A stretch of 64,000 nt of DNA from the NCBI RefSeq assembly GCF_900100875.1, contig NZ_FNKQ01000003.1, positions 186,001 to 250,000 on the forward strand, given 5' to 3'. The notes beneath the pieces are model-generated. The model had not been told where the DNA came from and did not search any database. It saw nothing but the letters and a program-made list of their open reading frames with translations. Below are positions 50,316 through 52,764 of this stretch, one piece after another; within the stretch, counting starts at the first letter, position 1, and every line of letters starts with the position of its first letter. Made by a program: the position numbers and the translations under genes. This DNA comes from Halopelagius longus. Lineage in GTDB: Archaea > Halobacteriota > Halobacteria > Halobacteriales > Haloferacaceae.

Positions 50316-50397
50316 TCGCTCGCAAATCGGAGATTCGTTCGCTGCTCGAATCGGACCGAGACGGACCGTTCACCGCTCACTTCGTTCGCAGGAGAAG

Positions 50398-50471
50398 TCC
50401 GCTCTCCCCGATTTGAACGGGGGGCAAGCCGATCTACAGTCGGCTGCTCTACCAAGCTGAGCTAAGAGCGG
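50398..50471 (-). tRNA. tRNA-Tyr (anticodon GTA)
   Basis: On the minus strand a 74-base cloverleaf: acceptor stem CCGCTCT/AGAGCGG with discriminator A, D arm TAGCTCAGCTTGGTAGAGCA, anticodon arm CCGACTGTAGATCGG with GTA, short variable loop, T arm CCCCGTTCAAATCGGGG. The C1-G72 pair fits archaeal tRNA-Tyr. CCA is not encoded. Confidence 0.95.
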
Positions 50472-50576: not shown

Positions 50577-51152
50577 ATGAGTAAAATAACGTTCCGCGCC
50601 GACGACGACCTCGTCGAGCGACTGGAGGGGTTAGACACCTCCAAGAGCGAGGTGATGCGCGACGCGTTGCGTACGTACCTCGACCGGGCGGAGCGTGAGT
50701 CGTCCGACGCCGACCGGTCGGGCGCGACTGGCACCATCGACGCCGCACTCGCCGCGTACGTCGACGAACTCGTCACCGAACGAGTCGACGAACTACTCGC
50801 CACGCGCCTCGGCGAGCGACGGACGCCGCCGCGCGACGTAAACGTCAACCTCACCGTCGAGGGAGCGAAAACCGTCGAAAACGGCGTAAACGCCGGCGAG
50901 AGCGCCGACGGCGCGTCCGAGGCGCGTAAGACAGAGGCCGACGAGGACCGGACGGCCGCCGAGAGTCGAACGGACGCCTGCGAGAAGTGCGGCGAGGAGG
51001 TGTCCGACGAACACGTGTACTGTCCGAACTGCGGCGAGAAAGCGAACCATCGGGTGTTCTGCGAGTGCGGGGACGAACTCCGCTCCGACTGGGCGTTCTG
51101 CCCCGGATGCGGCCGCCGCACCTCCGCGGCGGACGTGCTCGAACGCCCGTAA
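50577..51152 (+). CDS. cdrL: CdrL-type RHH regulator with zinc ribbons
   Basis: 191 residues. Residues 1-40 form a ribbon-helix-helix (KITFRADDDLVERLEGLDTSKSEVMRDAL). A variable linker follows, then two zinc ribbons: CEKCGEEVSDEHVYCPNCGE and CECGDELRSDWAFCPGCGR. In haloarchaea this long RHH protein upstream of the short RHH and ftsZ2 genes is known as CdrL, a regulator of cell-division genes. The assignment rests on gene order and domains. Confidence 0.8.
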   Translation: MSKITFRADDDLVERLEGLDTSKSEVMRDALRTYLDRAERESSDADRSGATGTIDAALAAYVDELVTERVDELLATRLGERRTPPRDVNVNLTVEGAKTVENGVNAGESADGASEARKTEADEDRTAAESRTDACEKCGEEVSDEHVYCPNCGEKANHRVFCECGDELRSDWAFCPGCGRRTSAADVLERP

Positions 51153-51191
51153 ACGCCTTCAGTCGTCCGCATACGACAGTCTGAGCGGTTT

Positions 51192-51346
51192 GTCTTACAC
51201 TCGCCGTTACATTTATAACGTATCGCTCTGTGGTAACTGTCGCGTAAGACGGTCGTCTTACACACCGGCCTCGCGGCGGGGAAACGCTCTCCGTCCCGCG
51301 TTTTCGGGTGTGTAAGATGCTCGCACAACGGTGCGCGCCGTCTTAC
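51192..51346. promoter_or_regulatory. Repeated GTCTTAC operator-like sites upstream of cdrS
   Basis: Five copies of GTCTTAC(AC) or its complement lie between cdrL and cdrS: 51192-51200, 51244-51250, 51255-51263, 51308-51317 (one mismatch) and 51340-51346. The pair at 51244-51261 is a palindrome, GTAAGAC-GGTC-GTCTTAC. RHH proteins bind such inverted half-sites, so CdrL or CdrS binding is likely. The leading copies flank the TATA box. Confidence 0.65.
51212..51218 (+). promoter_or_regulatory. TATA box of the cdrS-ftsZ2 unit
   Basis: TTTATAA is a strong TATA element between the first operator copy and the palindrome. Transcription from about 51243 would begin at the palindrome and give a leader of about 120 bases before cdrS, unusual for haloarchaea. 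Confidence 0.5.
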
Positions 51347-51363
51347 CGGGGGAATGCAAAAAT

Positions 51364-51543
51364 ATGGAGCGTGTGACACTACGAATTCCGAAGCAGCAGA
51401 TCGAGGAAGTTGAACGCATGGTCGAAACCGGGGAATTCCCGAACCGGAGCGAGGCCATCCGTTCAGCGGTGCGCGAGATGCTCAACGAACAGCAGTCCGA
51501 GAACCGCGAACACTCGGGCAAGCGAACCTGGGCCAAGGTGTAG
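51364..51543 (+). CDS. cdrS: CdrS short ribbon-helix-helix regulator
   Basis: 59 residues: [20 protein letters not shown], then [20 protein letters not shown], a complete ribbon-helix-helix and little else. CdrS is known in haloarchaea as regulator of ftsZ2 and cell division. It is 3 bases upstream of ftsZ2 and must be cotranscribed. ATG 51364 is preferred over GTG 51331. Confidence 0.87.
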
Positions 51544-51546
51544 ACG

Positions 51547-52764
51547 ATGCAGGATATCGTCCGCGAGGCCATGGAACGCGACGAGGAAGAGAAACAGGCC
51601 GCCGACATGGCCGACGACGACGACGGATTCGGTGACCCCCGAATCGTCATCGTGGGCTGCGGCGGCGCTGGAAACAACACGATCAATCGCCTCTACAACA
51701 TCGGCGTCGACGGTGCCGAGACGGTGGCCATCAACACCGACAAACAGCACCTGAAGATGATAGAGGCCGACACGAAGATTCTCGTCGGCAAGTCCCTCAC
51801 GCAGGGTCTCGGCGCGGGCGGCGACCCCTCGATGGGCGAGCGCGCGACCGAGATGGCCCAAGGGACCGTCAAAGAGGTCCTCGGTAACGCCGACCTCGTG
51901 TTCGTCACCGCCGGCATGGGTGGCGGCACCGGGACCGGTGCGGCGCCCGTCGTCTCGAAGATCGCCAAAGAGCAGGGAGCCATCGTCGTGGGCATGGTCT
52001 CGACGCCGTTCAACGTCGAGCGCGCGCGCACGGTGAAGGCCGAGGAAGGACTGGAGAAACTCCGCAACGAGGCGGACTCCATCATCGTCCTCGACAACAA
52101 CCGCCTGCTGGACTACGTGCCCAACCTCCCCATCGGGAAGGCGTTCTCCGTGATGGACCAGATCATCGCGGAGACGGTCAAGGGCATCTCCGAGACCATC
52201 ACCCAGCCCTCGCTCATCAACCTGGACTACGCGGACATGTCCACCATCATGAACCAGGGCGGCGTCGCGGTGATGCTCGTCGGCGAGACGCAGGACAAGA
52301 ACAAGACCCAAGAGGTGGTCAACGACGCGATGAACCACCCGCTTCTCGACGTGGACTACCGGGGCGCATCCGGCGGCCTCGTCCACATAACCGGCGGCCC
52401 CGACCTCACACTCAAGGAGGCCGAGGGTATCGCGAACAACATCACCGAACGCCTCGAAGCGTCCGCGAACGTCATCTGGGGCGCTCGCATTCAGGACGAG
52501 TACAAGGGCAAGGTACGCGTCATGGCCATCATGACCGGCGTCCAGTCGGCGCAGGTCCTCGGCCCGACGACCCAGAAGCAGGCCGACAAGTCGCGACAGA
52601 GCCTCGAGTCGCCTTCGGAGTTCGACGCGAGCAACAACGTCGAAGCCCCGAACCCGTCCGGTCGGTCCGGCACGTCCGGTCGGTCCAACACCGGCGGGTC
52701 GTGGCAGTCCGACGGCGGGCGCGACCAGTCCGAAGAGAGCAACGGGCTGGACGTTATCCGCTAA
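51547..52764 (+). CDS. ftsZ2: Cell division protein FtsZ2
   Basis: 405 residues. GTP-binding: [15 protein letters not shown] near residue 36, tubulin signature GGGTGTG at 125-131, and synergy-loop region [15 protein letters not shown] near 220. The N-terminus ([17 protein letters not shown]) and C-terminal NGLDVIR match haloarchaeal FtsZ2 rather than FtsZ1. FtsZ2 polymerises at midcell and drives constriction. The C-terminal linker holds a short [13 protein letters not shown] repeat. Confidence 0.93.

Follow-up and report, generated by a model that had tools for sequence, protein, structure and literature searches.

The timing of FtsZ-based division in archaea is an open question, and in haloarchaea a main regulatory entry point is the cdrS-ftsZ2 operon. 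We examined a 64,000-nucleotide stretch of the Halopelagius longus genome (the window) in which cdrL lies directly upstream of this operon, the gene order of a CdrL-controlled promoter, and asked what signals the space between the genes carries. By open reading frames and Pfam matches, cdrL (50577..51152, plus strand; 191 amino acids) encodes a ribbon-helix-helix (RHH) domain (PF01402), the CdrL middle region (PF24252, CdrL_M), and a double zinc ribbon (PF12773). The RHH regulator CdrS (51364..51543, plus strand; 59 amino acids; PF01402) has its nearest named relatives in Halogeometricum pallidum (93%) and H. limi (92%), and its gene is followed by ftsZ2 (51547..52764, plus strand), encoding a cell division tubulin homologue with a Tubulin family match. 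On the far side, a tRNA-Tyr (GTA) gene called by ARAGORN (50397..50471, minus strand) adjoins cdrL and served as a synteny marker.

The original prediction placed five GTCTTAC-type sites between cdrL and cdrS, two of them palindromic around the probable start of transcription. All five were found, four exact and one with a single mismatch, and the palindromic pair falls at the start that we predict below. Site 1 (51192..51198, plus strand) is an exact heptad upstream of the TATA box and is not transcribed from the cdrS promoter. Sites 2 (51244..51250, minus strand) and 3 (51255..51261, plus strand), also exact, form the left and right halves of the palindrome GTAAGAC-GGTC-GTCTTAC. Site 4 (51312..51318, minus strand) reads GTAAGAT, one mismatch from the GTAAGAC of most relatives, and site 5 (51340..51346, plus strand) is an exact heptad shortly upstream of the start codon. 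The window contains five exact heptads, all at the cdrL-cdrS locus; the fifth is site 0 (GTAAGAC; 50926..50932, minus strand), which lies within cdrL.

Four GTCTTAC copies in the 211-bp gap were not reached by any of 5,000 dinucleotide shuffles (maximum, 2), and 28 of 2,000 shuffles contained some 7-mer at least four times. A repeated heptad in one sequence alone is only moderately surprising, and it is conservation that decides. Genome-wide, GTCTTAC is not enriched (74 copies versus 80 for a reversed control); at this background frequency, we rejected a genome-wide GTCTTAC regulon. The palindrome is the only one, at spacers of 0 to 12, in the 3.87-Mb genome.

We think it probable that the region is a two-layer element, a DNA operator that is read by Cdr RHH proteins and at the same time supplies the framework of a structured mRNA leader. 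A more tightly coupled version is possible but clearly less likely: the heptads, besides being the Cdr RHH operator as DNA, would form leader stems able to exchange partners (2:5 and 3:4 in one fold, 2:3 and 4:5 in the other), so that one sequence would set both initiation and translation, with CdrS as a CdrL-independent autoregulator.

Comparison across haloarchaeal cdrS promoters, which the original prediction had called for, found the motif conserved, so that the lack of conservation named as its refutation did not arise. In each of the 80 named loci, three or more exact heptads precede cdrS, and their arrangement is similar. The exact palindrome (2- to 8-nt spacer) is present in 380 of 391 haloarchaeal genomes, covering 84 of 86 genera, and is single copy in nearly every one, with two copies in G240 and G363; the reversed-control palindrome, counted by eye, occurs in about 9 of the 391. 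Outside the class it was found in 3 of 241 genomes versus about 23 for the control (by eye), which is chance level. These three palindromes and the extra G240 copy were rejected as relatives because no CdrS-like start lies nearby. Among the 11 class genomes without an exact palindrome, three (G230, G348, and G362) lack a strong cdrS match, and the other eight have cdrS with one palindrome half altered.

For site counts, we used 155 palindrome-bearing loci, that is, 166 loci (some genomes being included twice, as L125/L205, L127/L204, and L133/L203) less the 11 without an exact palindrome; L139 to L141 had been left out as weak or different RHH genes. The palindrome spacer is 4 nt in 122 of these loci, 5 in 24, 2 in 6, and 3 in 3. 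Site 5 is exact in 144, site 4 in 111, and site 1 in 97, the last with at most one mismatch in 144. Site 1 most commonly lies 52 bp upstream of site 2 in the plus orientation or 62 to 65 bp upstream in the minus orientation. Haloquadratum-type loci (L112 to L114) have, in place of the palindrome, direct repeats GTATGAC-GTAAGAC-GTATGAC spaced 10 bp apart, a natural rearrangement of the operator. One Haloferacaceae chromosome record (CP132292.1) carries two similar cdrS loci, L061 and L072, one near each end, which is possibly an assembly overlap.

The position of the palindrome relative to the promoter is also constant. A TATA-like box, TTTATAA, lies at 51212..51218 (plus strand), and all 60 cluster representatives with a recognizable box have TTTA(A/T) 30 to 33 bp upstream of site 2; in 11 of 71, no box was recognized. 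Because of this consistent distance, transcription is predicted to start on or beside site 2, at 51242..51244 (plus strand) in H. longus. The leader would then be about 120 nt long, as had been proposed. Near its end lies GGGGGAA (51348..51354, plus strand), a possible Shine-Dalgarno-like segment that is invariant in all 21 aligned Haloferacaceae leaders.

Besides the intergenic sites, site 0 also bears a mark of selection. The heptad is written within the codons CGT-AAG-AC(A), encoding Arg-Lys-Thr. Among 127 distinct cdrL genes, we found 62 Arg-Lys-Thr linker motifs just upstream of the zinc ribbon, and 61 of them are written CGT-AAG-AC, which is the heptad; in these genes, CGT makes up 19% of Arg codons. 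When the set was thinned to 97 genes, CGT was used in 45 of 46 such motifs; other Arg-Lys pairs in the unthinned set used CGT in 0 of 13 cases. As a control, 560 nt of ftsZ2 coding sequence contained the heptad in 0 of 166 loci. Because synonymous choice is constrained while the flanks vary, this pattern argues for selection on the DNA at site 0.

The cdrL heptad is present in 59 of 121 examined loci, and 48 of 65 copies lie 311 to 333 bp from site 2. It accompanies a plus-oriented site 1, usually at 52 bp from site 2; in the alternative layout, site 1 is minus oriented and mostly 62 to 65 bp away. The lineages behind this association are not independent. Five loci of family f3 (L105, L106, L107, L110, and L111) have two cdrL heptads 45 bp apart, both in the Arg-Lys-Thr frame. 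In one locus without cdrL (L199, from G183), an exact heptad stands about 347 bp ahead of site 2, at a distance of 473 bp upstream from cdrS, and is possibly a relic of site 0.

We then considered which protein reads the array. The original prediction held that CdrL acts at this promoter and that the heptads are its likely binding sites. The first point fits ChIP-seq in Halobacterium salinarum, where, according to the main text, the cdrS promoter region was the only reproducible CdrL site (PMC7439475), and a single ChIP site agrees with the palindrome occurring just once in almost every genome. An operator through which CdrL alone acts would account for both observations, as well as for the position of site 0 inside cdrL itself and for the detection of CdrL, weakly in a few cases, at E <= 0.001 in 371 of 382 class genomes, but we consider it unlikely because of the genomes in which CdrL is missing.

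Fifteen doubtful genomes were searched with a profile built from 22 CdrL proteins. By this search, 11 genomes from seven genera lack CdrL: ten have only weak partial matches (G001, G002, G007, G026, G093, G136, G138, G261, G282, and G311) and G183 has no match at all. Four of them (G002, G007, G136, and G261) are single contigs. The exact palindrome is kept in all 11. Site 5 is exact in all nine CdrL-less loci that were inspected (those of G261 and G311 not being among these); none of the nine has an RHH-like open reading frame besides cdrS, and in eight the tRNA-Tyr gene lies upstream of cdrS. Three further cases are not counted among the 11: G353 (87% complete, 210 contigs), which has the palindrome and no CdrL profile match; L060, which was CdrL-less by pattern scoring yet had a CdrL match in another search; and L276 (G388, 81% complete), which was CdrL-less by pattern scoring and lay outside the profile search.

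Pooled counts suggested that sites 1 and 4 decay upon cdrL loss. This was rejected by comparison with sister genera, in which CdrL-bearing genomes mostly share the same variants; the two sites vary mostly by lineage. The one clear difference is in genus g69, where two CdrL-bearing genomes have an exact site 4 and the CdrL-less genome reads GTAGGAC there. Neither the palindrome nor the sister comparison thus showed the array to depend on the presence of CdrL, and CdrL is dispensable for palindrome retention. The statement in PMC7439475 that all sequenced Halobacteria encode CdrL does not hold in the present sample. Of the proposal that the heptads are CdrL sites, what stands is that they are conserved, functional sites in the region of the CdrL ChIP signal (PMC7439475); CdrL as their sole or necessary reader is not supported.

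The other Cdr protein at the locus is CdrS. In Haloferax volcanii, CdrS was detected by ChIP at ftsZ1, and Table 1 of that study gives 18 ChIP-seq sites, none of them at cdrS (PMC8406309). The FLAG-CdrS used there was expressed from a plasmid with a different promoter (PMC8406309), which leaves the native cdrS promoter free for binding. We examined ftsZ1 upstream regions in 13 chosen genomes, and all 13 contain two GTCNGAC-like heptads with centers 11 bp apart, 63 to 68 bp before the ATG. At least 10 of 12 consensus positions match in every genome and at least 11 in 11 of the 13, with the caveats that the threshold of 10 admits a few other positions as well and that the consensus was derived here from these 13 promoters and not from the published CdrS logo. 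The cdrS palindrome (51244-51261) has the same geometry, two heptads with centers 11 bp apart over about 18 bp, and both elements have cell division targets. They differ in sequence and position: the ftsZ1 box, in our own reading, is GTCNGAC and lies upstream of the promoter, with the published motif at -50 (PMC8406309), whereas the cdrS palindrome is GTAAGAC/GTCTTAC, with outer triplets GTA/TAC in place of GTC/GAC, and sits on the predicted start site.

At dacZ, another CdrS ChIP target, we compared 15 upstream regions, of which 3 match the consensus at 11 of 12 positions; by eye, two Haloferax-like regions show only a degenerate pair. Because dacZ support is limited to 3 of 15, we do not confidently generalize the ftsZ1 motif. 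A generalized box, GTMNKAC-4-GTMNKAC, occurs 48 times versus 4 for the control in eight chosen genomes, many of the 48 copies lying inside predicted open reading frames, so that they do not represent 48 promoters.

These comparisons suggest CdrS as an alternative or additional reader of the heptads, one that is common to all genomes. A third regulator, neither CdrL nor CdrS, could instead read the heptads everywhere, which would agree with the absence of CdrL from 11 genomes and of a CdrS ChIP peak at cdrS in H. volcanii (Table 1 of PMC8406309); we regard this as rather improbable, since the CdrS operator at ftsZ1 belongs to the same class and cdrS adjoins the array wherever the locus was inspected.

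In the two-layer reading that we favor, the DNA layer would be a multisite operator composed of the heptad in cdrL, one heptad upstream of the TATA box, the start-site pair, and two leader sites. RHH dimers may bind single heptads and pair over sites 2 and 3, which lie about one helical turn apart upon the predicted start. Arc/MetJ-type RHH operators are likewise built of dimers on half-operators about one turn apart, and an RHH cell cycle regulator, aCcr1, is known from the Sulfolobales. CdrL would be the most likely reader where it is present, and CdrS the putative reader common to all genomes. Protein bound over the start site would block or tune polymerase, giving repression or tuning, and sites 0, 1, 4, and 5 could reinforce this through looping or cooperative loading.

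RHH proteins on 7-bp repeats are also known from the Omega/ParB arrays of pSM19035, where the repeats stand in direct and inverted orientation and four or more contiguous, gapless repeats are needed for full activation of the ParA ATPase (PMC9499535). The cdrS locus likewise has 7-bp repeats in both orientations, but unlike those arrays, its heptads occupy a stretch of about 420 bp in which only sites 2 and 3, 4 bp apart, form a close pair. The H. salinarum promoter of Darnell et al. (2020) shares the cdrL-cdrS-ftsZ2 gene order and is the only place bound by CdrL in vivo; its main text contains neither "motif" nor "palindrome," and the text covered does not mention a leader RNA structure (PMC7439475). 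More broadly, the matches listed for open-license PubMed Central text (excluding preprints, figures, and supplements and including PMC7617429 and PMC12284271) contained no description of the GTCTTAC heptads, site 0, or the leader fold.

Four of the heptads lie within the predicted transcript, and we therefore examined the leader as RNA, from site 2 to the ATG. Three helices are predicted, all on the plus strand. P1 would pair sites 2 and 5 as its 5' and 3' arms (51244-51252 with 51338-51346, an inverted repeat). P2 (51256..51317) is a stem-loop with 11-bp arms, 51256-51266 and 51307-51317, that form a perfect inverted repeat from sites 3 (5' arm) and 4 and enclose an inner hairpin. P3 (51322..51335) is a CGCAC/GTGCG hairpin between sites 4 and 5. 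Compared with dinucleotide shuffles, all 37 leaders chosen from two families (156 available) folded with z < -2 (mean, -4.5), whereas coding controls from 26 loci gave z values of -0.4 and -1.2. Among 16 further leaders, 9 without an exact palindrome and 7 without CdrL, 10 reached z < -2. In the Haloquadratum type, which lacks sites 3 and 4, P1 stays and P2 is predicted to re-form, e.g., as GACA:UGUC.

Covariation was analyzed in 71 cluster representatives of palindrome-bearing loci in which sites 4 and 5 could both be used; 28 loci lacking one or the other in usable form were excluded. Unconstrained folding paired 2:5 and 3:4 in 64 of the 71, while 3 preferred the alternative conformer B and 4 showed neither. 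Because all heptads are mutually complementary, we tested covariation outside them. Between the flanks of site 3 and those of site 4, 3.34 of 5 positions pair within species versus 2.54 across species (z = 7.0), and the signal disappeared when the register was slid by 1 or 2. Among all ten heptad pairs, 3-4 stands apart (outer flanks, z = 7.6) and no other exceeds 3.3: site 1 with sites 2, 3, and 4 gave 2.4 to 3.3, the inner flanks of 2-3 gave 2.8, and the rest were lower. In a test that swaps halves, the inner hairpin of P2 gave z = -11, against -2.5 (reversed) and -0.8 for controls. The energy/swap test of the P2 flanks gave -9.2 versus -5.5 for the reversed control, so that composition explains part of the latter signal.

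Support for the other two helices is weaker. P3 forms 4 bp or more in 58 of the 71 representatives, and its swap test gave z = -8.5 versus -4.6 for the reversed control, with composition again explaining part; we consider P3 only partly supported by these alignments. For P1, the two flanking bases gave z = 6.4 without clustering and the flanks gave 1.3 with it, and the heptads themselves hardly vary. Helix covariation beyond sequence conservation was thus found for P2 only. Overall, the transcribed heptads appear, from comparative sequence data, to be stems of a conserved folded leader RNA, with P2 carried by covariation and P1 a candidate.

Folding could also be a by-product of inverted heptad copies in a pure DNA operator with no role for the RNA. 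The heptads do explain much of the folding (in 40 leaders, mean minimum free energy [MFE] was -56.9 versus -45.0 when they were scrambled), and their sequence hardly drifts, as expected for a protein site. However, when the heptads were kept and the inner segments shuffled, the energy went from -53.5 to -43.6, a cost of about 10 kcal/mol (z = -30), and clear flank covariation was confined to the 3:4 pair, with flat slip controls. Folding also favors the transcribed strand, which has a lower MFE than its complement in 57 of 71 representatives and 231 G-U pairs versus 117; this excess goes beyond that of shuffled inner segments (z = -5.6), and in a cdrL coding control the strand preference leans the opposite way. 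We give the pure DNA operator little weight on these grounds. An RNA-only bistable switch, in which each of the four transcribed heptads is locked by two pairing partners and no DNA-binding protein takes part, would suit heptads that alternate minus, plus, minus, plus and are mutually complementary, as well as two stable folds (means of -55.4 kcal/mol for A, the better in 68 of 71, and -49.8 kcal/mol for the alternative, preferred by 3), but it is very improbable in view of the same heptad being retained at site 1, which the transcript does not include, and within the coding region of cdrL, of 4:5 stem extensions whose flanks do not covary (z = -0.7 to -2.8), and of the CdrL ChIP signal at the region (PMC7439475).

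In the two-layer reading, then, the leader of about 120 nt would adopt a three-way fold of P1 (2:5), P2 (3:4 with its hairpin), and P3 (between 4 and 5) that leaves GGGGGAA and the ATG unpaired, and this fold would likely set the stability or translation of cdrS-ftsZ2 mRNA. Such a fold would offer a cause for data from H. salinarum, in which cdrS-ftsZ2 mRNA levels do not match ribosome occupancy; the reanalysis reporting this suggests, in the text covered, posttranscriptional control of the operon (PMC8303175). In H. volcanii, a monocistronic cdrS RNA of about 250 nt has been reported (PMC8406309), shorter than the cdrS leader plus gene, which may reflect leader processing or an error in the size estimate. 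The outcome is an exact, class-wide cis element whose six predicted DNA sites and one RNA fold are separately mutable.

Like the structured 5' leaders and riboswitch-like RNAs in Rfam, this leader has a conserved, covarying fold between the start site and the first codon; unlike them, its stems double as DNA heptads. A known Rfam family was rejected, since no family matched the cdrS leader up to E = 1. A covariance model (R1) built from 22 leaders detected the element in 49 of the 53 class genomes searched, against 0 of 241 outside the class; because heptads dominate its matches, we used it for distribution only.

CdrS-type heptads also occur at other positions. Among Natrialbales leaders (L013, L017, L051, and others), most of the 16 that were aligned share a conserved GCGTCTGACAGGGGCGC block located between sites 4 and 5; it includes the CdrS-type heptad GTCTGAC, which falls in the P3 hairpin. 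In the Haloferax-like genome G240, a GTCTGAC-type two-heptad box (L227, 1501-1518) precedes a volactin gene (L227:402-1466, minus strand; Pfam PF25216) by 34 bp, hinting that CdrS-type boxes may also serve the archaeal actin. Bactofilin-like genes (PF04519) at L240:1554-2411 and L249:616-1464, in genomes of two families, have boxes at 1501-1518, 35 to 36 bp upstream. In a third genome (L252), the box lies within a predicted open reading frame, and the protein sequence is similar to the bactofilin-like ones.
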